From positions 1-28,544 of the forward strand of contig JBFLZW010000008.1 in the NCBI GenBank assembly GCA_040755755.1: a stretch of DNA of 28,544 nucleotides, read 5' to 3'. Source of the stretch: a bacterium. Its GTDB lineage: Bacteria; SZUA-182; DTGQ01. The translations under genes and the position numbers were made by a program. This document shows, one piece after another, positions 6,204 to 19,115 of this stretch (position 1 is the stretch's first letter; each line of letters opens with the position of its first letter). Under the pieces are notes generated by a model that did not search any database, was not told the DNA's origin, and saw only the letters and a list, made by a program, of their open reading frames with translations.

Positions 6204-6290
6204 TATTCAGGAGTCAGAATTCAGAAGTCAGAAGTCAGGAGAAGATGATTACTTATTCTGAATTCTGACTCCTGACTCCTGACTTCTGAA
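6204..6290. repeat. Heptamer-based inverted repeat
   Basis: Tandem heptamers of the form TCAGGAG, TCAGAAT and TCAGAAG run rightward, and their complements return after a short gap. The arms 6207-6226 and 6256-6275 are perfect 20-bp complements, and 6228-6241 pairs perfectly with 6276-6289, so more than one fold is possible. The element lies just before the ribosome binding site of the methyltransferase gene at 6307. It resembles the short tandemly repeated heptamers scattered between genes in some bacteria. It could be a mobile palindrome or could influence the mRNA leader. Confidence 0.85.
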
Positions 6291-8027: not shown

Positions 8028-8969
8028 CTAAAAGCCATCCCCTTCCGGGAGATCAACCCTCCAGATCATCCGGCCTATGCAGCCGCTCAATATTTTATTT
8101 ATCTTGCCTTCGTGAGTCGCCATGCCCTGTAAGAGGGAAAGGATTCGCTGCCGGACCGATCCTTCGTCGCCTTCATCTCCTTCCAGGTATCCGTGAAACA
8201 GGTCAAACAGGAGATCAGCTTCCGTCTCCGGATCAACCATGCTTTCATATTCATAATGCCGAAAATCGACGGAAGGCCGATACCCCATCGAATAGAGCAG
8301 GTTAAAGGCGAAAGTGATGTTGCCCCAACGATGGTCAAGCTCTTTTCCAGTGAGCTGCTGCCATACCTCCTCAACGGTATTTTGTCTCCGTTTGCCTGAC
8401 CAGGCTGCCAGAACGCACCACTGCCTGCTGGTAGAAAGAAATTTCAGGAAATTTTCCGGATCGCTGACAGCCGGGGTCATATGGGCAAACGACAGGTCAA
8501 AGGCAGAGCGAAATCCCAGTTGATCGAGGTCAGCACTTTGCCAGTCCACCAGCAGGGGAGTAATCCTGCTGGCTGCCTCTGCCGGGATATCTTCCTTCAG
8601 ACAGCCCAGCATCCCTTCGGACACATCCACCGCTGTCACCCGGGCACCGGCCTGGGCAAAAGGAATGGCAAACCTGCCGGTTCCACAGCCAAGATCCAGG
8701 ATCTTAACCCCCTCCCTGAGAATGCCTTTTTCTTTCAGGAGCATGAGCATTCCTTCTCTCATTGGATCTTTCTGAGACACATTCCACCGTTTGCTGAGAT
8801 CCTTCGACAGCTTGTCCCAGCGGTCAGCCTTGAGAAAGGCTCTGTTTACCGTTGCCTGGGCCTGTTTTTCAGCCCGTGCCCACTGCCGCATCCAGAAATT
8901 CGGGTCAAGAGGATTGTCCAAAGGGTTATCATAAGGATTTGCTTCATCCGGTCCCATGGTCAGCAACAT
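8028..8969 (-). CDS. Class I SAM-dependent methyltransferase of the metal block
   Basis: A 313-residue soluble protein with a clear SAM-binding motif ILDLGCGTGRFAIPFA at residues 90-105 and VTAVDVSEGML as the acidic strand-2 motif. A helical N-terminal extension of about 85 residues (DPNFWMRQWARAEKQAQ) precedes the fold. The substrate is not recognisable. The start chosen has AGGGGAG seven bases upstream and overlaps the 3' end of the FmdE-domain gene by 10 bases, so the two are translationally coupled. It is the last gene of the long minus-strand metal block. A neighbouring tetrapyrrole-methylase-fold gene makes corrinoid or porphyrin chemistry a possibility, which is inference only. Confidence 0.88.
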   Translation of the reverse strand: MLLTMGPDEANPYDNPLDNPLDPNFWMRQWARAEKQAQATVNRAFLKADRWDKLSKDLSKRWNVSQKDPMREGMLMLLKEKGILREGVKILDLGCGTGRFAIPFAQAGARVTAVDVSEGMLGCLKEDIPAEAASRITPLLVDWQSADLDQLGFRSAFDLSFAHMTPAVSDPENFLKFLSTSRQWCVLAAWSGKRRQNTVEEVWQQLTGKELDHRWGNITFAFNLLYSMGYRPSVDFRHYEYESMVDPETEADLLFDLFHGYLEGDEGDEGSVRQRILSLLQGMATHEGKINKILSGCIGRMIWRVDLPEGDGF

Positions 8970-9733
8970 GAGCGCTCTCCCCTCTTCTGGCTGATTCCCG
9001 AACCGTCGAGCTGAAAAAAACTGTCCTGGCGGCATGGGATGCAGACAATCTTCTCATCCCGGACCCTGGCCCGTGTTTCCATGATCTTCTCGCCACACAG
9101 CGCGCAGATGGAGCTGCGGAAAATGGGAGCATACTTTTCCGCACTTGCCTGGACTTCCTGAATGGTCAGAAGCTCCTCCTGCGGCAGGATCGCAAGCTCA
9201 TAGGATCCCCGCAGGAACAGCTTCTTTAAAAGCTCTCCCTCTTCGGCAGTTCCGCTCCGTCTGGTGATCACCTTATCGAACAGCTCCCTGGATCCGGGAT
9301 ATATCCGCTCCTGCACGCGCTCTATCGTTTCCAGGGCTTCAGGACGGACACAAACCCGAAAAGCCCTGTCTTCCCGCCTGATGAGGGTGAAAGCGTTCTT
9401 TCCCAGGTCGCGAAAGATCAGAGCATTATTGCCGAAGGTGCAGCCGGTGGTTATCTGGACGCCATCCGCAAAGCAGTTGTTGCATTCTATGATGCAGATT
9501 ACCTTTTCCATGCCATCCATCGATTCCTCGCCCAACTTGCGAACCGCCAGGCTGCCAGCCATAACACCCAGCGTCACGAAGCTGCACAAATGGCCGTGGA
9601 ATTCGGCTGCCTTTTCGATCAATCCCCTCATGTCCCGATCCTGGATCATCTGGCGGATGGATAAACGCGGATTTTGCATCATCTGCGGGATACCAGTCAA
9701 ATCGATAGTTCCGGGCATCTCTTTGGTCTCCAT
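8960..9733 (-). CDS. FmdE-domain metal-binding protein with C-terminal zinc ribbon
   Basis: FmdE was named after an extra subunit of molybdenum formylmethanofuran dehydrogenase, but bacterial FmdE proteins have no established reaction. This 257-residue protein shows the family core: FHGHLC at 45-50 and CNNCFADGVQITTGC at 84-98, whose His and Cys residues are candidate metal ligands. It ends in a zinc ribbon with Cys210-x2-Cys213 and Cys231-x2-Cys234. No export signal is present. The start is the ATG at 9733, ten bases after GGAG; an ATG three codons earlier is too close to that site, and a GTG at 9763 is the remaining alternative. The methyltransferase start lies inside its 3' end. Its place behind nickel-type genes suggests metal delivery or sensing, by context only. 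Confidence 0.87.
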   Translation of the reverse strand: METKEMPGTIDLTGIPQMMQNPRLSIRQMIQDRDMRGLIEKAAEFHGHLCSFVTLGVMAGSLAVRKLGEESMDGMEKVICIIECNNCFADGVQITTGCTFGNNALIFRDLGKNAFTLIRREDRAFRVCVRPEALETIERVQERIYPGSRELFDKVITRRSGTAEEGELLKKLFLRGSYELAILPQEELLTIQEVQASAEKYAPIFRSSICALCGEKIMETRARVRDEKIVCIPCRQDSFFQLDGSGISQKRGERSCC

Positions 9734-9893
9734 GTTCAGCATGCTCCTTTCTTGTTGGTACACTTCAACGTATGGTCAGGACTTCACCCTCAAAGAGCGT
9801 TAAACCGATTGAGTCATCAGTTTACGGGAACCAGAGCATTTGGTCAACCCATTTATGCAGGGACAGGGATAATTCCTCGATCGATTTGCTATG

Positions 9894-11971: not shown

Positions 11972-12754
11972 TCATTCAAGGCCAAGGGTCAGGGTTATTC
12001 GATAGGTGGATTTATCACATTCAGATTGATCGGGAAACGGTATCTCATGGGTGGCGGTAATGAGCCAGGGGCCCTGAGAGGTCAACTTCATCCGCACCAT
12101 CCCCTGATCGTCGCTCTCCGATTCCTGCACCCACTTGCCTTCCTGCTGCTGAGCAGTGTTTTTATCAGTAGCACTGACCTTGGCTCCGGCAAGCGGCTTG
12201 CCCTGATACACTACTTTCAAGGCTAATTCGTCACCGACTTTGAGCCTGCCGATATTCTCCGGCAAAACCATTTCAAGTGGCAGGTCGCTGACCGGAGAAG
12301 GACTGCTGGCCTTGGCACCGACATTGATCAGCACTTTGGCATTCATCGTAAACTGGAAACAGGAAACGGCATTGGGCAATGACTTTTTATTTCCCATCTT
12401 GCGGCCATCGGGAGTATTTGAGACAAAGCCCTGTTTCATTTTTATAACTACCTCATACAGCCCTTCAGTCTTGGGTGAAAAAGCATATTTCGCAGGAGCG
12501 GCTTTTTCGATCGGCAATTCCTGACCTTTGGGGTCACGGATAAAGATACGCTCGATATTCTCTTCCTTAACTGCCTCAGTATGAGGGTATTTATGCCCAA
12601 AGCCTATATCTATGGTTACATTTTCTCCTGCTTTGGGTGTGTAATTACTGGCATTCAGCCAGAGCATATGGCCTTGTGCCGCTGACACCATGCCGACCAT
12701 GCAAATCACTGCCAAAAGGATCATCCCTGTCTTTTTCACTATCGTCTTTTTCAT
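11972..12754 (-). CDS. NikK-like periplasmic DUF4198 protein
   Basis: A 260-residue exported protein. The signal peptide covers about 1-28 (twin lysines, hydrophobic core, then AAQG), leaving a mature N-terminus beginning His-Met-Leu-Trp. The body is all-beta and of DUF4198 type: NYTPKAGENVTIDIGFGHKYPH (about 37-58), ERIFIRDPKGQEL, then a second domain with LKVVYQGKPLAGAKVSATDK and DQGMVRMKLTSQGPWLITATHE. DUF4198 includes NikK, the periplasmic component linked to nickel ECF transporters; an N-terminal His exposed after cleavage and an internal GHKYPH are plausible metal ligands. The start has GGAGG five bases upstream. The gene begins 18 bases after the tetrapyrrole-methylase-fold gene, so they are co-transcribed. 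Family confident; metal identity inferred. Confidence 0.82.
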   Translation of the reverse strand: MKKTIVKKTGMILLAVICMVGMVSAAQGHMLWLNASNYTPKAGENVTIDIGFGHKYPHTEAVKEENIERIFIRDPKGQELPIEKAAPAKYAFSPKTEGLYEVVIKMKQGFVSNTPDGRKMGNKKSLPNAVSCFQFTMNAKVLINVGAKASSPSPVSDLPLEMVLPENIGRLKVGDELALKVVYQGKPLAGAKVSATDKNTAQQQEGKWVQESESDDQGMVRMKLTSQGPWLITATHEIPFPDQSECDKSTYRITLTLGLE

Positions 12755-12772
12755 TCTTTCCTCCTTCAGCTT

Positions 12773-13663
12773 TTATTTATCAGCGGCTTTATACCGGTTA
12801 GTCACAAAATCGCCGACATATATCAGGTGTTCAAAAGGAAGCTTTCCTCCCTGTGTTTTTTCCAGAATCGTATCCAGCGTGCCGTGAATGATTTCTTCTT
12901 TATCCCGGTAGCCCGCATACAGCACTATGGCTATTGGTGTCTCAGGGGGGTAATGCACCTTGAGCTTCTTCACAACTTCCGCCAGATCGAGGAACATGGT
13001 GAAAAACACCATAGTAGCCTGGTTTGCAGACAAATTCTCAATGCTGTCGGTACCGGCGTATTCTTCATTCCCGAATGAGGCGGTGAGAATGACCGAATGG
13101 GTTTTCTTTCCCGAAGTCACTCCTTTTTTCAGGGCGGCATTGGCAGCGTTGAAGCAACTGATCCCCGGCACGATTTGCGGATTCAGGTCCTCAAATGCTT
13201 CCATGTACCACATGTTCGGACCGTAGATTGTAGGGTCTCCGCTGTCCAGCACCGATACGGTTTTGCCTTCCTTGACTGCCGTGCGGATTATGGAGTTAAT
13301 TGCATTGAATTCCCTGAGCTTTTCTTCATAATTGAACCGCTTGTTCTTTTTCGCTTCTTCCGGAGTTTTCCCGTATATGCCAAAAATCCCAAACCCCGGA
13401 TCATGGATTTCCTTCCCCTGCAGGAGGATGGGGAACCTGTCCCTCATTTCCCTGGTGCAAAAAATAATATCCGAGTCCTTGATTACATTCACCGCCCGCA
13501 GGGTGATGTTATCCGGGTCCCCGCTTCCAACGCTCACCAGATAAACTTGCGTCCTTGGTGGTTCCTTTGCGGCAGCATATCCGGCTGTTCCCGACGATAC
13601 GGCCGCCATAACCATCAGCACTGCTGCAACTTGTCTCAACTTCCGGGCTAATATGATATTCAT
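12773..13663 (-). CDS. Tetrapyrrole-methylase-fold protein with signal peptide
   Basis: The CobA/CbiF-type methylase family uses SAM to methylate uroporphyrinogen III and corrin intermediates in the cytoplasm. This 296-residue protein has the family motifs: VSVGSGDPDNITLRA (44-58), SVLDSGDPTIYGP (137-149, the SAM-binding loop) and QIVPGISCFNAANAAL (163-178). Unusually, the first 32 residues form a clear Sec signal peptide (Arg/Lys-rich start, hydrophobic core, TAGYAAA before Lys-Glu), so it should be exported, where SAM is not expected. Between 85 and 125 it also has a Lys-rich insertion. AAAGGAG precedes the ATG. It sits directly between a TonB receptor and a NikK-like gene. It may bind a tetrapyrrole or metal complex rather than methylate; the fold and signal are seen, the role is inference. 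Confidence 0.85.
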   Translation of the reverse strand: MNIILARKLRQVAAVLMVMAAVSSGTAGYAAAKEPPRTQVYLVSVGSGDPDNITLRAVNVIKDSDIIFCTREMRDRFPILLQGKEIHDPGFGIFGIYGKTPEEAKKNKRFNYEEKLREFNAINSIIRTAVKEGKTVSVLDSGDPTIYGPNMWYMEAFEDLNPQIVPGISCFNAANAALKKGVTSGKKTHSVILTASFGNEEYAGTDSIENLSANQATMVFFTMFLDLAEVVKKLKVHYPPETPIAIVLYAGYRDKEEIIHGTLDTILEKTQGGKLPFEHLIYVGDFVTNRYKAADK

Positions 13664-13737: not shown

Positions 13738-15873
13738 CTAAAATCCTACTTTTGCCGTTGCCCCGATGATTCTTCCGGGCATCGGATAGCCAAAGCGCTC
13801 TTCGTACCGTTCATTAAACAGATTTTCCGTATAGATGCCGATCTCACCATATTTTGTCACCGGGAATTTTACCTCAATGTCGGTGGTTGTATAGGAGTCA
13901 AGTTTTCTGATTTTATTGGTGTCGATAGTCTCCTGCTCACCTACGTACCTGATATTGGTACTGAATGTTCCTTCTTTCCAGGGGAAGGGAAATTTCACCT
14001 CAAAACCTGTCGTGCCCTTCCACTCAGGCATATACTCCAGCTCGTCAGTGAGCTTTGCGGTATCCATGATGTCACCTTCTTTTTTGCTCTTCTGGTAGGT
14101 GACATTCCCCCGTAACGTCATCCAGCTCATGATTTCAGCGGCTCCGTCAATCGATCCCCCGGTCAGATTAACCTTATCAATGTTATAACACCCCCTCCTC
14201 CCATCGGGGACGGAATATCTCTTGATATAGTCATTAATCATGTATTTATACAAGGAAAGCCTGGCATAGGCTTGCCGGGAAAAATCATGATTATATGTCA
14301 GTTCCACGGCATCATTCTTTTCCAGGTCCAGGGCGTTGGTATAAAGCCCTCCCAGGTATCCTTCATACCACCAATAAGCATCCGGTGCTGAAGGCGTGAG
14401 ATACTTTCTGTAGATCGATGCAGTGAGGGTATCATTTTCCGCAATTTTGACCGTCCCGGTTACCGAGGGGCTTATTCCTTCATCTTTTAAGGTTTCGTGT
14501 GATGCCAATCCCGATTCTTTGGCTTCGAAGGTATCGTACCGGACACCCGGCGTGAGCAGGAACCTGTCGGTTATGCCCCAGCTATCCTGAAGATAGTACC
14601 CCCACAGATGGCTTGCCTGTCCGTCACTGTTGGTGACAGGTCCTCTCGTACCGTACTTATAATCCACAAAATGAACATCCTGCCCTGCGGTGGCGATAAC
14701 CTTCCCTTCGATTCCCCAGATGATTTCATGATTTTTCAAAGGGAGGGTAAACTCGCCGCTCCCGCCATATGACCTGTCAGGCCTCACTGTTCTGTCAAGG
14801 ACAAGTTTTCCGTCTGAATATTTACTGTTTATCCAGCTTGCCGAATAATTTTTTTCATCCCTTTCTTCATGATTCTTGAATGCCTTAAGCTCGATCATGG
14901 CATTTTTAACCGGCTGTTTATAAGCAAAATCAAGAAGATACTTCGTCTTTTTCCAGTAAGACCCCGGACCGGGGGTTGATACCTTGCCTGCACCGGGAGA
15001 AAAGCCTTCACCATTGGAAAGTGGATAATCGCGATTTATTTTTATCTTGAATTTTGGATCGTCGGGATTACTGGAAAGCCTGTTCAGTATCTGAAAGCCG
15101 CGTTCTACATCGATGTATTGAACTCCTATGGACATCTCTGCCATGAGCGGCATATCAACAAAGAGCTTGCCCGATAAATTCTTTGCTTCATAATCGTTGT
15201 TCCAGAGGAATTCATCCGCCTTCTGGCAGCTTCCTCCAAGGGAATATCCGAAAGGACCGATTTTAAAACTGTGAGTGACCCGGTAATTCTGGATATAACT
15301 GATGTCCTCGCCTGCTCCATAATGGCTGTAAAATGAAACAGCCGGTTTTTCGGCAGGTTTTCTGGTGACGACATTGATGACTCCTCCTCCGGCATTATTG
15401 CCATACCTGACCGAGCTTCCACCTTTCATCACTTCTATCTTTTCGATGTTATCCAGAGGAATTGTGCTCCAATCAATAAAGTAGCCGCCCTGGACTCCCG
15501 CAGCATTGATCGACCTGCCGTCAATGTTCAGCATAATCCTGTTCCCTGAAAGGCCCCTGATCTTGAGCGTGTCACTCGTATCGCCGACCAAGGACCTTCT
15601 GTTCAGGTCTATCTCAGGCTCATTCTTTAAAACATCGGGAATGGTGGTATTTTTGCCCTTTTCGATAGTCCTCTCACCAACTACCGTTACAGGTTCGGTA
15701 ACAGCCTCATCTATTACCGTAATCTCATCCAGGGTAAGATGTTTTACCGCCTGTTCCTGCGGTTCCTGCTGTTCAGTACCCTGTGCGGTCTGGTCAGCAT
15801 GTGCAGTATATGCAGCCGCAACGACAATCATGGTTAAGCACAATATCCTCAGAAACTTGCATATTTTCTTCAT
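13738..15873 (-). CDS. TonB-dependent outer-membrane receptor
   Basis: A 711-residue receptor. Residues 1-26 form a signal peptide ending AHA. A likely TonB box (DEITVID) lies near 48-54. The plug domain follows, with IPDVLKNEPEIDL, LKIRGLSGNRIMLNIDGRSI, IEKIEVMKGGSSVRYGNNAG and GGVINVVTRKP. The beta-barrel ends in TENLFNERYEERFGYPMPGR and a terminal Phe, as outer-membrane proteins do. Such receptors import metal chelates, haem or cobalamin using TonB energy; here the neighbours favour nickel or cobalt complexes. The start chosen (GGAGG seven bases upstream) lies 46 bases below a conserved leader hairpin; an in-frame ATG at 15978 lies inside that hairpin and would extend the protein by 35 residues without a ribosome binding site close by. 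Confidence 0.93.
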   Translation of the reverse strand: MKKICKFLRILCLTMIVVAAAYTAHADQTAQGTEQQEPQEQAVKHLTLDEITVIDEAVTEPVTVVGERTIEKGKNTTIPDVLKNEPEIDLNRRSLVGDTSDTLKIRGLSGNRIMLNIDGRSINAAGVQGGYFIDWSTIPLDNIEKIEVMKGGSSVRYGNNAGGGVINVVTRKPAEKPAVSFYSHYGAGEDISYIQNYRVTHSFKIGPFGYSLGGSCQKADEFLWNNDYEAKNLSGKLFVDMPLMAEMSIGVQYIDVERGFQILNRLSSNPDDPKFKIKINRDYPLSNGEGFSPGAGKVSTPGPGSYWKKTKYLLDFAYKQPVKNAMIELKAFKNHEERDEKNYSASWINSKYSDGKLVLDRTVRPDRSYGGSGEFTLPLKNHEIIWGIEGKVIATAGQDVHFVDYKYGTRGPVTNSDGQASHLWGYYLQDSWGITDRFLLTPGVRYDTFEAKESGLASHETLKDEGISPSVTGTVKIAENDTLTASIYRKYLTPSAPDAYWWYEGYLGGLYTNALDLEKNDAVELTYNHDFSRQAYARLSLYKYMINDYIKRYSVPDGRRGCYNIDKVNLTGGSIDGAAEIMSWMTLRGNVTYQKSKKEGDIMDTAKLTDELEYMPEWKGTTGFEVKFPFPWKEGTFSTNIRYVGEQETIDTNKIRKLDSYTTTDIEVKFPVTKYGEIGIYTENLFNERYEERFGYPMPGRIIGATAKVGF

Positions 15874-15919: not shown

Positions 15920-15986
15920 AAAAAAAGCCATGAAGATATCTCCTCCGGCTGTTTTTGGGCCGAAGGAAAAGCCTTCATGGCTTTTT
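15920..15986 (-). promoter_or_regulatory. Conserved leader hairpin, copy A (TonB receptor)
   Basis: On the minus strand the arms GCCATGAAG and CTTCATGGC, extended by A/T pairs, enclose GCTTT, an inner stem (TCCTTCGGC with GCCGGAGGA) and GATAT, and a run of seven U follows. It lies between the porin stop and the receptor start, 46 bases before the receptor ATG and about 105 bases after a TGGTATCAT box near 16089-16098. It can act as an intrinsic terminator, so it is a candidate attenuator of the receptor gene. See the findings for the comparison of all four copies. Confidence 0.75.
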
Positions 15987-16135
15987 ACTGCCTGATTTTA
16001 TTGACTCCTTTTCTTTCAGTAGTTATAAAATAGCTTACCTGTTCTCAGGCTTTCGTCTCTTGCTGAAAAGAAGTCAGTTATTCATTGTAAATGATACCAG
16101 TGCTGCCCTTCCTTGGAGTGTTCCCCAAAAGGATC

Positions 16136-17143
16136 CTAAAACTCAAGTCTCAACCGAAGGGTCCAGTCCTGGATCTTTGATACTTCTTCATCTTCCACTT
16201 GGGTAATCCGGTATTCAGACATAAGAGTTGCATGCTCATGAAGTTGATAATTGACACCTGCACTTGCCCGGTACTCTTCACCTATCAGTGAACCGGATTC
16301 ATAATCCTGGACTTCGTCCACACCATCGTCATACCCTTCAAACCGTCCGACCAGCTCCAGAACGGAGAGGGGCTTGAAAGCCGCGGAGATGGAATAGGCA
16401 GAATCCTCTGGACGGTTCTGATCCCTTTGCAATGCCCTGATATATTCCGCATCGAAGGTCAGTTTCTCCAGAAAGGCTGCTGACAGACTGGCACCCAGAG
16501 AATCATTGCGCTCATTCACTCCCTGCTCCGAATCAAAGTAAATACTCAGGTTGAAAAATTCCGCCGGAGCAAAGGAGGCATTGAGAATATAGTTACCAAA
16601 ATCATTTTTGAGTTCAGCATTAGGGTCGGCGAAGCGGGCCTCTCTGCCGGAGTAGCCTGCCAGGGAGACATCCATCCACTTAACCTGCTCCAGAGCCAGG
16701 GTAAAGCTTACTGCCGGGGCATTGATTTCATAAGCATCCTGGGTCAGAGGATCGCTGGTCAGGTGATTATTGAACACTCCAAAGGGAAGGCACCACTTTC
16801 CGGCCATGATGGTAAGGGGCATATCCGCAAGCTTCGACAAAGTGATAGCAGCCTCATCCACAACCAGTTGATAACTCTCTTCTTCATCCCCGCCCTCGTA
16901 TTCATAATTAACCACAGCATGAGCTGAAACATGCTCATCAAGCTCACTGTTGATGGACAACTCAAATAAATCCAGCTTGACATCACTGGAATTATCAGTA
17001 TTTTTCTGCTTTGATCCGTACAAATCCAGATCGATGGTTCCTTCAATCTCAAGCTTCTCAGCCTGTACCGTACCAACAAAGCTCAGTACACACGCAAGGA
17101 GGAGATAAATAAAAGCCGGATAAAAAATTTTCTCTTTTCTCAT
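16136..17143 (-). CDS. LbtU-like outer-membrane porin
   Basis: A 335-residue outer-membrane beta-barrel protein. A signal peptide covers about 1-28 (hydrophobic LLLACVLSFVGTVQA), and the chain ends in LRLRLEF with the C-terminal Phe required for barrel insertion. The middle segment, with KWCLPFGVFNNH and LTSDPLTQDAYE, and the strand AGYSGREARF resemble LbtU, the Legionella legiobactin receptor/porin family. That family takes up a chelate without TonB. Here it likely passes a metal or its ligand into the periplasm, judged from its place beside the TonB receptor. The ATG chosen has AAGGGAG upstream; an in-frame codon ten residues earlier lacks one. Its own promoter and leader hairpin lie upstream. 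Porin assignment fairly sure, substrate inferred. Confidence 0.82.
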   Translation of the reverse strand: MRKEKIFYPAFIYLLLACVLSFVGTVQAEKLEIEGTIDLDLYGSKQKNTDNSSDVKLDLFELSINSELDEHVSAHAVVNYEYEGGDEEESYQLVVDEAAITLSKLADMPLTIMAGKWCLPFGVFNNHLTSDPLTQDAYEINAPAVSFTLALEQVKWMDVSLAGYSGREARFADPNAELKNDFGNYILNASFAPAEFFNLSIYFDSEQGVNERNDSLGASLSAAFLEKLTFDAEYIRALQRDQNRPEDSAYSISAAFKPLSVLELVGRFEGYDDGVDEVQDYESGSLIGEEYRASAGVNYQLHEHATLMSEYRITQVEDEEVSKIQDWTLRLRLEF

Positions 17144-17230
17144 TCTTTCTCCCTTTCTGATTCCTTTTCTCACTTGAACCTATTGTACGCGGTCTCTTGA
17201 AATTATGGGTAATTAAGCCCGCCCATAAAC

Positions 17231-17299
17231 AAAAAAAGCCATGAAGATACTCTCATCCGGCTGTTTCCTGGCCGGTGAAAAAGCCTTCATGGCTTTTTT
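17231..17299 (-). promoter_or_regulatory. Conserved leader hairpin, copy B (LbtU-like porin)
   Basis: Same arms as copy A (GCCATGAAG/CTTCATGGC). The inner stem is CCGGC/GCCGG, with AGAGTAT on its 3' side (GAGATAT in copy A), and a seven-U tail follows on the minus strand. It lies 87 bases before the porin start codon and about 97 bases after a good promoter at 17399-17427. It shares most of its upstream leader with copy A, so the two leaders are probably duplicates. Confidence 0.75.
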
Positions 17300-17398
17300 A
17301 TAACCTGACTTTTATTTCGCCTTCTTTTCTTTCTGTGATCGGAAATAACTTGCTTTTGTTTAGTCTTTCGCTCCTTCTCGAAGCAATTATTGCTATAA

Positions 17399-17427
17399 TA
17401 AATACCAACTGATTCTCTTTTTGTCAA
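17399..17427 (-). promoter_or_regulatory. Sigma-70-type promoter for the porin gene
   Basis: On the minus strand TTGACA (17427-17422) and TATTTA (17404-17399) are separated by 17 bases. The -10 is preceded by TTGG, shared with the promoter at 19087-19115 and with a box near 16096. It lies directly beyond the terminator of the His-rich gene, so the porin has its own transcript. Confidence 0.65.
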
Positions 17428-17457
17428 GGGAAAACTTCCAACCTGATTGTCCCTTCC

Positions 17458-17496
17458 AAAGAGCCGGTACCTTCAAAAAGAGGCTACCGGCTCTTT
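17458..17496 (-). terminator. Terminator of the His-rich peptide gene
   Basis: A perfect 12-bp stem (AAAGAGCCGGTA and its complement) with a 15-base loop starts 15 bases past the stop codon at 17511. The A/T ends of the stem give a short U-run on both strands. It separates the His-rich transcript from the porin promoter. Confidence 0.75.
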
Positions 17497-17510
17497 TCCA
17501 GGGTTCAGTT

Positions 17511-17732
17511 TTAATGCTGATGGCTATGTTGTTCGTCGTGATGCTGATGATCAGTGTGGAGTGAACCATGCTCGCCTGCTGTCAGGTGCACGTGTTCATG
17601 ACTGTGAGTTACTGTTCCGGCGGTGTGTTCATGCTCGTGAGACCAGTCACCATGTTTGTGTACATGAGAATGACGGGATTCAGGATGAGTATGCTCGTGA
17701 GTATGTTTTTCATGTTTCTCATGATGCGACAT
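17511..17732 (-). CDS. Histidine-rich metal-binding peptide
   Basis: A 73-residue cytoplasmic peptide in which about two fifths of the residues are His, mixed with Glu, Thr, Ser and Lys, for example MSHHEKHEKHTHEHTHPE at the start and HHDEQHSHQH at the end. There is no Cys, signal peptide or membrane segment. It resembles, in composition only, the nickel-storage proteins Hpn and Hpn-like of Helicobacter and the His-rich tails of nickel chaperones such as HypB and SlyD. Nickel, cobalt or zinc buffering is the likely role. Two overlapping purine-rich sites (AGGAGGTGAAAGGAG) precede the ATG. It has its own promoter (17852-17880) and its own terminator, so it is expressed alone. The AT-rich leader between them can fold through AGGGG and CCCCT blocks near 17755-17805. 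Confidence 0.85.
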   Translation of the reverse strand: MSHHEKHEKHTHEHTHPESRHSHVHKHGDWSHEHEHTAGTVTHSHEHVHLTAGEHGSLHTDHQHHDEQHSHQH

Positions 17733-17851
17733 ACTCCTTTCACCTCCTTTCGTGAAATTCTCCCCTCTACATCAATCAAGGGGGCTTATATCACCCCTCT
17801 ATCATAAGATGGAAAAATAATTTGAAAGAGGCATATTATATTTTGTTGCTT

Positions 17852-17880
17852 ATAATAACGGATCTCATCATTTAGTGCAA
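17852..17880 (-). promoter_or_regulatory. Sigma-70-type promoter for the His-rich peptide
   Basis: On the minus strand TTGCAC (17880-17875) and TATTAT (17857-17852) are separated by exactly 17 bases, and transcription would begin about 110 bases before the His-rich gene. Hairpin copy C lies upstream of this promoter, not in the leader it would produce. Confidence 0.65.
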
Positions 17881-17922
17881 CTATTATCTTTAAAATATTA
17901 AAAAGCGATAGCTTTAAGGAAT

Positions 17923-17980
17923 AAAAAAAGCCATGAAGGAACCCCGGTCTCTGAACCGGAAGATAAGCCTTCATGGCTTT
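17923..17980 (-). terminator. Conserved hairpin, copy C (after cooT)
   Basis: The arms GCCATGAAGG/CCTTCATGGC enclose an inner stem (TTCCGGT with ACCGGGG), and seven U follow on the minus strand but not on the plus strand. It lies about 60 bases after the cooT stop and before the promoter of the His-rich gene. Here it best fits a 3' terminator of the DUF3842-cooT transcript, or an attenuator for read-through into the His-rich gene. Same family as copies A, B and D. Confidence 0.7.
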
Positions 17981-17998
17981 GATACTTCTAACTATTAC

Positions 17999-18037
17999 TC
18001 CATTTCGGGCATCTTGTCCTCCATTTCGGGCATCTTG
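17999..18037 (-). repeat. 21-bp period direct repeat downstream of cooT
   Basis: An identical 18-base sequence occurs at 17999-18016 and 18020-18037, a 21-base period. On the minus strand, just after the cooT stop, it reads ATG CCC GAA ATG GAG GAC AAG and repeats, giving the tiny frame MPEMEDKMPEME and a stop, in another frame than cooT. With no ribosome binding site it may be a relic of a longer CooT tail or only a DNA repeat. The rest of the 309-base gap to the His-rich gene holds hairpin C and a promoter. Confidence 0.6.
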
Positions 18038-18041
18038 CCGG

Positions 18042-18236
18042 TTATTCCGTTTTCTCAAGAATAATCTTATGATCGATTAACGAAATTTTTTTAATTTTCC
18101 CCTGTAAAATTTTTTGATCGCCGAATATATCGACAATTAACAAACTATTTTCAGTCTCAGGTTGAATCACATCTACCGATTCCATAAAAAGTTCTTCATT
18201 CCCTTCCGTTTCAACATAGGCATTTGCTTCGCACAT
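18042..18236 (-). CDS. cooT: CooT-family nickel-binding protein
   Basis: CooT is a small cytoplasmic nickel chaperone linked to maturation of the nickel CO dehydrogenase; related proteins occur widely in anaerobes. The 64-residue product starts MCEANAYV, the family signature in which Cys2 is the nickel ligand. It continues with EELFMESVDVIQPE, VDIFGDQKILQGKIKKISLIDHKIILE, matching the small beta-barrel of the family from end to end. The start is put at 18236 because of the conserved MCEA; a GTG four codons earlier is closer to GAGAGAAA and remains possible. The start lies 26 bases inside the DUF3842 gene, so the two are translationally coupled. No CO dehydrogenase or hydrogenase gene is in the window. 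Confidence 0.88.
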   Translation of the reverse strand: MCEANAYVETEGNEELFMESVDVIQPETENSLLIVDIFGDQKILQGKIKKISLIDHKIILEKTE

Positions 18237-18660
18237 GATTTTTTTCACTTTCTCTCATTTCCTTAATCTTTTGAATGAGTTTATCAGTCAGATGCGGCAG
18301 CGGCTCGCCTTGATGGCCGATAAGGGAAACATCCTCTATGGGAAGAGGTAATAAGAGTTTCCAGGCCCTGCTGTTGGCAATAGCCTCCGCCATTTTTGGG
18401 GTTAGTTCTCCCAGCATGGAATTTGCCATGATCACATTAACCGTTCCGATAATAACGTCTACACGATCAGCAACATACATGATTGCATTTTCTCCGGAAG
18501 CACCCCGGTTTGCCTTGGCTTTCATCATAACCGAAGTAGCCAGAGAATTCGTACCGAGGGCGATGATTTCCAGAGACTGAAATTCCACCTCCTCTCTGAG
18601 CCGTTTGATGACGTAACTCCCGATACCACCAGCATGTCCATCGACAACCGCTATGATCAA
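18211..18660 (-). CDS. DUF3842 family protein
   Basis: A 149-residue soluble protein of unknown function. It has the full DUF3842 pattern: AVVDGHAGGIGSYVIKRLRE near the N-terminus, a nucleotide-fold-like glycine loop. Then follow EIIALGTNSLATSVMMKAKA, GASGENAIMYVADRVDVIIG, IMANSMLGELTPKMAEAI, and LLPLPIEDVSLIG. In genomes I know of it is often next to CooT, as here. The start is taken at a TTG (18660) eight bases after AGGAGGG, which also gives the family's usual short N-terminus. An ATG at 18687 would add nine residues but has no such site. Its 3' end overlaps cooT by 26 bases. Transcription probably starts at 19087-19115, leaving a leader of about 400 bases with two hairpins. Confidence 0.82.
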   Translation of the reverse strand: MIIAVVDGHAGGIGSYVIKRLREEVEFQSLEIIALGTNSLATSVMMKAKANRGASGENAIMYVADRVDVIIGTVNVIMANSMLGELTPKMAEAIANSRAWKLLLPLPIEDVSLIGHQGEPLPHLTDKLIQKIKEMRESEKNHVRSKCLC

Positions 18661-18729
18661 CAGATTGCCCTCCTCATGATAGTCCATACCCGGTCACTGA
18701 ATATCCCCTCATAAAAAGCTGCCTGCGGC

Positions 18730-18759
18730 GGGCTACATCCATTGGTTTGGATGTAGCCC
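18730..18759 (-). promoter_or_regulatory. 12-bp hairpin in the DUF3842-cooT leader
   Basis: A perfect 12-bp stem (GGGCTACATCCA and its complement) closes a 6-base loop about 70 bases before the chosen DUF3842 start. On the minus strand it is followed by a GC-rich dozen bases and then TTTTT, so it could terminate or pause. The remaining 662-base gap up to 19322 otherwise holds hairpin D, two divergent promoter-like sites and no further gene I can support. Confidence 0.5.
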
Positions 18760-18927
18760 TATCCATAAGGGAAATAATGAATCCCACCACGATGATGGAA
18801 TCGTGATGGCTGATGAACATAACCCCGGCTTAAAAGTACCGGTGGTTCTGTGATTGTTCCTGGTTCACCGTCATCAGCAGTCACTTCCTGTTTTTCCGGA
18901 GAATAAACCCTCCATCTCCGGAAAAAC

Positions 18928-18980
18928 AAAAAGCCATGAAAGCTTTCGGATATTCCGTCCGAAAAAAGCCTTCATGGCTT
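18928..18980 (-). promoter_or_regulatory. Conserved leader hairpin, copy D (DUF3842-cooT)
   Basis: The arms pair over 14 bp (GCCATGAAGGCTTT with AAAGCTTTCATGGC, one G-U), with inner stem TCGGA/TCCGA and a U-tract on the minus strand only. No minus-strand gene lies upstream, since the next gene to the right is on the plus strand. Copy D therefore cannot be an ordinary 3' terminator and must sit in the leader of the DUF3842-cooT transcript, about 104 bases after its promoter. This is the copy that most strongly indicates regulation. Confidence 0.75.
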
Positions 18981-19086
18981 AAATGGCTTAAATAATTACA
19001 ACCTTCTCCCTTGCACTTGAGGGAAAGGATATCTCTTTTTACCTCTCCCACTTCTTCGTGAGATTGATTTTGAGTAATTTCTGTAA

Positions 19087-19115
19087 TTAATACCAAGAGA
19101 AGTTGTTCTTGTCAA
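19087..19115 (-). promoter_or_regulatory. Sigma-70-type promoter for DUF3842-cooT
   Basis: On the minus strand a perfect TTGACA (19115-19110) is followed after exactly 17 bases by TATTAA (19092-19087), again preceded by TTGG. The match to the porin promoter in both boxes and in the TTGGTATT junction suggests the same kind of control for both. Confidence 0.7.

Follow-up and report, generated by a model that had tools for sequence, protein, structure and literature searches.

What are four similar hairpins doing among the nickel and cobalt genes of a bacterium of the GTDB lineage SZUA-182; DTGQ01? They lie in a 28,544-nt stretch of contig JBFLZW010000008.1 (assembly GCA_040755755.1), which we call the window, and we refer to them as copies A to D of one element. 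A preliminary description of the window had taken them for an attenuator or riboswitch-like RNA confined to a nickel/cobalt gene block. Our comparisons support the regulatory part of that proposal: with a probability of roughly 0.6, the elements attenuate transcription from within the 5' leaders of genes for nickel, and possibly also cobalt, uptake and handling. Their anatomy suggests an antiterminator of two hairpins that have the loop ANGAA in common and would be read by some factor, more than it suggests a compact metal-binding aptamer.

The element and the genes it precedes

All four hairpins are found where they had been described. The arm sequence said to be common to them, GCCATGAAG, is exact on both arms of A, B, and C, but copy D has GCCATGAAA as its plus-strand left arm, a variant that forms a G-U pair in the RNA sense. 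Read in the sense of the genes, on the minus strand, all four are laid out as AAGCCATGAAGGCTT, a variable inner hairpin, and TTCATGGCTTTTT. The inner stems differ in sequence and still pair, as both the sequence and the predicted folds confirm. TTTTT follows each of the four on the minus strand; C and D lack it on the plus strand. Each copy has the form of an intrinsic terminator, with a hairpin rich in G+C, a U-tract after it in the RNA sense, and predicted folds of -27 to -36 kcal/mol.

A covariance model built from the genome's 11 copies (R1) returned those 11 as strong matches in the 5.26-Mb genome (E<1e-12; next best match 0.25). Exactly four are in the window (contig C8), where the preliminary description had likewise seen no others, and seven more lie on contigs C33 (five), C2 (one), and C30 (one), so that the supposed restriction to the nickel/cobalt block does not hold. 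All 11 copies precede metal-uptake or metal-handling genes. In the window, A, B, and D stand before the TonB receptor, porin, and DUF3842-cooT genes and C follows cooT, as had been noted, but C also precedes a His-rich open reading frame (ORF) that the preliminary description had overlooked. Outside the window, copy E precedes a methyltransferase gene, F an FmdE-family gene, H a TonB receptor with an ATP-binding cassette (ABC) transporter, and I Mg-chelatase-type ATPases; J is followed by a 623-aa protein and then ExbB, K by a TonB plug protein and then an FmdE-containing protein, and G by a Trep_Strep-like membrane protein and then a TrmO gene with a His-rich tail and an ABC ATPase. A truncated cooT remnant lies shortly before element G (L006 8655-8747), a hint that the cooT operon of the window is present here in a second, rearranged version.

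The element is not confined to this genome. Within the window's small phylum, the core occurs in eight of nine genomes. Of 148 Desulfobacterota genomes, 39 have the element according to a broader covariance model (R2). Among 84,980 named species, a scan for the exact pattern, whose yields are lower bounds, located at least 119 stretches, which belong to Desulfobacterota, Nitrospirota, Bacillota, Spirochaetota (Treponema), and Synergistota (Synergistes); the core AAGCC-ANGAA-GGCUU...UUCN'UGGCUUUUU is thus present in at least five phyla. Bacillota carriers among the matches listed include Thermovorax, Alkalibaculum, Desulfovirgula, and Phascolarctobacterium. Carriers in distant phyla have unrelated flanks. 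Two matches, L091 (Aquificota) and L123, were dropped from the set, as they lie inside long reading frames and look like chance.

Most such copies precede nickel/cobalt uptake or maturation genes. Among the 93 copies with at least 1.5 kb of downstream sequence, 78 are followed by a Ni/Co cluster gene on their own strand (such a gene lies elsewhere in 21), and some of the remaining copies precede other metal or ECF transporters, such as FecCD in L106 and an ECF component in L074. The first downstream gene of 73 copies was a TonB plug gene (12), CbiM (11), PDGLE (4), OprB (4), DUF4198 (3), ExbB (3), an ECF S component (3), SBP_bac_5 (2), or DUF3842 (2), and the second included DUF4198 (7), PDGLE (6), TonB, ExbB/D, CbiQ, and one CO dehydrogenase (CODH)/prismane gene. 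When the neighbours of 124 copies were clustered, TonB receptors were near 41 loci (39 downstream on the same strand, three upstream, and five opposite), CbiM near 27, DUF4198 near 23, and CbiQ near 20; no transcription-factor cluster was recognised among these common neighbours. Thirty loci picked by R2 score rather than by the exact pattern, a few of which overlap the pattern-found set, gave a similar picture, with a Ni/Co gene within 1.5 kb in 25. Searching related genomes and inspecting what follows the matches, as the preliminary description had proposed, thus yields metal genes rather than scattered unrelated ones: CbiM/NikM, CbiQ, DUF4198/NikK, TonB receptors, ExbB/D, nickel-type solute-binding proteins, CooT, and DUF3842. 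In G193 an element follows cooT and is itself followed by CbiM, which parallels copy C. Some regions hold two or three elements in tandem (L046 1431-1559, L209 1441-1552, L212 1501-1615, and contig C46 of G193).

The placement is that of a leader. TTGACA occurs in 40 of 81 upstream regions (3.3 expected), and AGGAGG follows downstream in 21 (2.2 expected). No Rfam family matched at gathering score in the window or at the elements of 20 related loci, the NiCo riboswitch included, and a relaxed scan returned nothing relevant; this agrees with the earlier statement that the hairpins match no familiar riboswitch class. We did not find the element described in the literature, although an unnamed earlier listing is possible, for example in the 2017 survey of 224 candidate RNAs. 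The element is a real, selected, and widely distributed leader RNA that is absent from Rfam.

Two competing folds and a common loop

Beyond the stem arms, the sense strand carries GGCTT after the terminator's 5' arm, invariant in 11 of 11 copies of the genome though often unpaired within the terminator. Its presence makes a second fold possible, in which the 5' arm, AAGCCANGAAGGCUU, pairs with it to form a mini-hairpin, P2 (AAGCC-ANGAA-GGCUU), with the loop ANGAA. P2 and the terminator exclude each other.

The terminator stem covaries. In it, the variable loop base N faces a partner that the pattern scan left unrestricted (any combination), and among the pattern-scan matches listed the combinations were C-G in 40, U-A in 36, U-G in 4, and C-A in none; copies aligned to the model and deduplicated by place add G-C and A-U (L219, L220), so that all four bases occur at N. 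For P2, the loop across 90 aligned copies reads A (89/90), N, G (90/90), A (88/90), A (89/90). Whole-stem variants (AAACC/GGTTT and AAGTC/GACT) have changed all three strands together, and three-strand changes are seen in L043, L209, and L212. A pair-count tool found 96.7% paired cells against 93.7% in shuffles, and seven pairs with two-sided changes. Its alignment had been fitted to the structure, and palindromic copies entered it with their reverse-strand matches as well; for this reason the 90-copy deduplicated count is the cleaner one. The compensatory variation read from the first four copies thus extends to the stems of the further ones.

At a score threshold of 10, 55 of 104 distinct leaders have a second small hairpin upstream, P1, with a loop that ends in GAA. 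The best of the 63 other trinucleotides reached 9, shuffled sequence averaged 2, and downstream sequence gave 9. The search covered loops of 4-5 nt, and those found were ANGAA or NGAA; pentaloops start with A in 28 of 32, and the closing pair is C-G in 40 of 55, giving C-(A)NGAA-G. Beyond that pair the stems vary, with 32 different 4-nt sequences in the 55, and the spacing to P2 is 4-113 nt, mostly 25-40 or 55-80. In the window, predicted folds gave P1-type hairpins for copies B and D (Table 1), none convincing for A, and none for C. The inner terminator hairpin (P3) also favours GAA loops, in 35 of 119 copies, with the next at 14. That P3 takes over from a missing P1 in short leaders is suggested by six leaders with strong promoters but is not significant overall. 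A leader peptide starting from the loop AUG was considered and dropped, because many copies have ACG there and, by eye, the frame is not kept between copies A and B.

We suggest that these parts would work as follows. When nickel is short, a trans-acting factor would recognise the ANGAA loops and hold P1 and P2, or P2 and the inner hairpin; with the factor bound, the terminator could not form and the uptake genes would be transcribed. When nickel is plentiful, the factor would release, the more stable terminator would form, and transcription would stop. This direction of the nickel effect is proposed because the regulated genes serve uptake. Fold energies are -27 to -36 kcal/mol for the terminator and -14 to -21 kcal/mol for the forced P2 state, so P2 would need help to win, and a factor reading the loop could give it, as ANTAR proteins do for hexaloops.

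The nickel link and the candidate readers

The metal is probably nickel, because the presence of the element is inversely tied to NikR, the DNA-binding repressor whose deltaproteobacterial operator, GTGTTAC-N13/14-GTAACAC, differs in sequence from the element (PMC545781). Among the 148 Desulfobacterota genomes, NikR occurs in four of 39 element carriers vs 62 of 109 others (Fisher p=2e-7), counts that ignore shared ancestry and include draft genomes, which can miss genes. It was found in two of 57 element-bearing genomes of a second set and was not found in G000. Within the window's phylum, the sole genome without an element match (G004) is also the sole one with NikR. NikR-independent control of nickel uptake had already been inferred in a survey (PMC2667541). 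The element system would then do the job that NikR does elsewhere. Going further, we consider the odds about even that a two-hairpin ANGAA antitermination RNA, read by a nickel-sensing RNA-binding factor, replaces NikR in anaerobes of several phyla.

Several observations weigh against the attenuator reading. About half of the leaders have no clear P1, the spacing of 4-113 nt is loose for a single dimer, P2 alone is worth -5 kcal/mol, and P3 does not significantly stand in where P1 is missing (6/14 vs 18/34). No candidate partner protein is present in every carrier (CooT is missing from 8 of 49 and ANTAR from 37 of 54), and the neglect of shared ancestry affects the CooT counts as it does those of NikR.

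The lack of a common protein partner would suit an RNA that binds nickel or a nickel complex itself and switches between P2 and the terminator without protein, as would the spread of carriers over several phyla and the strong conservation of the core. We regard such a direct-sensing riboswitch as unlikely, since only the loop and closing pair of P1 are conserved and its stems and linkers are unconstrained, unlike a metal-binding pocket; moreover, there is no multi-way junction and the NiCo riboswitch was not matched. Somewhat less probable again is a special case of the attenuator reading in which CooT, a small nickel-binding dimer and itself the product of a target gene, is the loop-binding nickel sensor. 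CooT occurs in 34 of 39 Desulfobacterota carriers vs 53 of 109 non-carriers (p=2e-5) and in 41 of 49 carriers of the pattern-found set, its gene lies between D and C in the window and just before an element in G193, G136, and G179, and COG1532 was, we presume, once labelled a predicted RNA-binding protein. Yet many genomes without the element have CooT, a nickel lifestyle alone could explain the co-occurrence, and the structural model matched CooT entries well and other folds weakly, giving no support for RNA binding; CsrA was not among these structural matches, which leaves a CsrA-like fold possible. We rejected CooT as an obligatory reader because eight of the 49 lack it, among them the isolates Desulfacinum hydrothermale and Phascolarctobacterium sp. 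ET69.

We consider it highly improbable that an ANTAR-domain protein has these leaders among its ordinary targets. The plan matches, with two small hairpins of which the second overlaps the terminator (PMC3369931), and ANTAR genes occur in 17 of 54 carriers and in five of the eight without CooT, which also indicates that the search was able to detect the domain. However, the domain was not found in the element carriers G000, G001, G002, G003, and G007, and loop, linker, and absence of the gene from most carriers together led us to reject ANTAR as the reader. Equally improbable are plain terminators or a mobile palindrome without regulatory role: all copies do form strong hairpins with a U-tract, genomes carry many of them, and copy C also stands just after cooT, but the copies are placed in one orientation before metal genes, keep the loop of the second hairpin, and recur between unrelated flanks in distant phyla. 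Their orientation, their covariation, and their association with particular genes argue against a mobile palindrome.

The element marks operons for nickel uptake and is mostly found where NikR is absent; if the attenuator reading is right, a new nickel sensor that reads RNA is to be expected. The element also offers a sequence handle for finding nickel genes in anaerobes, for example those of outer-membrane receptors.

Neighbouring features and comparison with known systems

The features of the four leaders and their adjoining genes are collected in Table 1. CooT is assigned by its PF10133 match, and its Cys2 is invariant across nine sequences. The 73-aa His-rich ORF has no Pfam match; it has a strong ribosome-binding site and may encode a nickel store or chaperone.

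Table 1. Elements, hairpins, promoter-like sequences, and adjoining genes in the window
Feature	Coordinates	Strand	Basis
Copy A, terminator/attenuator element before TonB receptor gene	15921..15985	-	covariance model E=4.8e-16; fold -35.7 kcal/mol
Copy A P2, AAGCC-AUGAA-GGCUU, mutually exclusive with terminator	15969..15983	-	exact match; -5.0 kcal/mol
Copy B, element before porin gene	17232..17297	-	covariance model E=1.9e-16; fold -30.5 kcal/mol
Copy B P2	17281..17295	-	exact match
Copy B P1, GCUUC-GAGAA-GGAGC	17370..17384	-	predicted leader fold
Promoter-like TTGACA-N17-TATTTA before copy B	17399..17427	-	sequence; TTGACA enriched upstream of related elements
Copy C, element between cooT and His-rich ORF	17924..17981	-	covariance model E=1.0e-14; fold -27.5 kcal/mol
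Copy C P2	17965..17979	-	exact match
Copy D, element before DUF3842-cooT	18927..18982	-	covariance model E=1.5e-15; fold -27.4 kcal/mol
Copy D P2	18966..18980	-	exact match
Copy D P1-like hairpin, UCUCAC-GAAGAA-GUGGGA, hexaloop version	19046..19063	-	predicted leader fold
Promoter-like TTGACA-N17-TATTAA before copy D	19087..19115	-	sequence
TonB-dependent receptor gene, downstream of copy A	13738..15873	-	PF00593 E=7.2e-30, PF07715 E=4.4e-22
Porin-like gene, downstream of copy B	16136..17143	-	PF13609 E=5.5e-05, below family cut-off
His-rich 73-aa ORF, unannotated, downstream of copy C	17511..17732	-	read from sequence
cooT, CO dehydrogenase accessory nickel-binding protein family	18042..18236	-	PF10133 E=2e-23; PDB 6FAN E=2.5e-14
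DUF3842 gene	18211..18687	-	PF12953 E=3.8e-49

A second structured leader segment lies between element D and DUF3842 (18700-18830, minus strand; GTGGTGGGATTCATTATTT...GGGCTACATCC/GGATGTAGCCC...GCAGGCAGCTTTTT). It has no Rfam match and, among the loci fetched, recurs only in related loci of the same family (L006 8540-8640, L020, L079). Near the TonB receptor, at 8028-9763 and 11972-13663 (minus strand), are methyltransferase-FmdE and TP_methylase-DUF4198 genes; similar genes recur near other elements and hint at a nickel-chelator or tetrapyrrole uptake route. One block at 6207-6290 holds overlapping direct and inverted repeats (TCAGGAGTCAGAATTCAGAA...).

Among known RNA systems, the sites of CsrA/RsmA are small hairpins with a short A-N-G-x-A loop, often paired, and the element shares the small hairpins and the loop pattern. 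CsrA needs GGA, however, and the ANGGA loop is not what the element carries: GAA is found in 88 of 90 aligned copies, and GGA only in L043 and L212. The NiCo (czcD) riboswitch is, like the element, an RNA leader tied to nickel/cobalt homeostasis, but the element has no Rfam match or multi-way junction and sits before uptake genes. In plan, the element resembles the leaders targeted by ANTAR proteins (Enterococcus faecalis eut, Klebsiella nasF), which have two small hairpins with a common loop motif; because the second overlaps an intrinsic terminator, a bound protein would cause antitermination (PMC3369931, PMC8934654). In the element, every copy has a P2 that overlaps the terminator and a clear P1 is present in 55 of 104 leaders, so the tandem arrangement is seen in about half. 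The two differ in the loop, which is an ANGAA pentaloop or NGAA tetraloop with a C-G closing pair in the element and a hexaloop with A1 and G4 in ANTAR targets, in the linker, which extends far beyond the 5-12 nt of eut, and in the regulon, which here is nickel. NikR is similar in its apparent job, the control of nickel uptake genes such as nikMNQO, but it acts at a DNA operator, whereas the signal of the element would be an RNA leader in carriers from which NikR is mostly absent.

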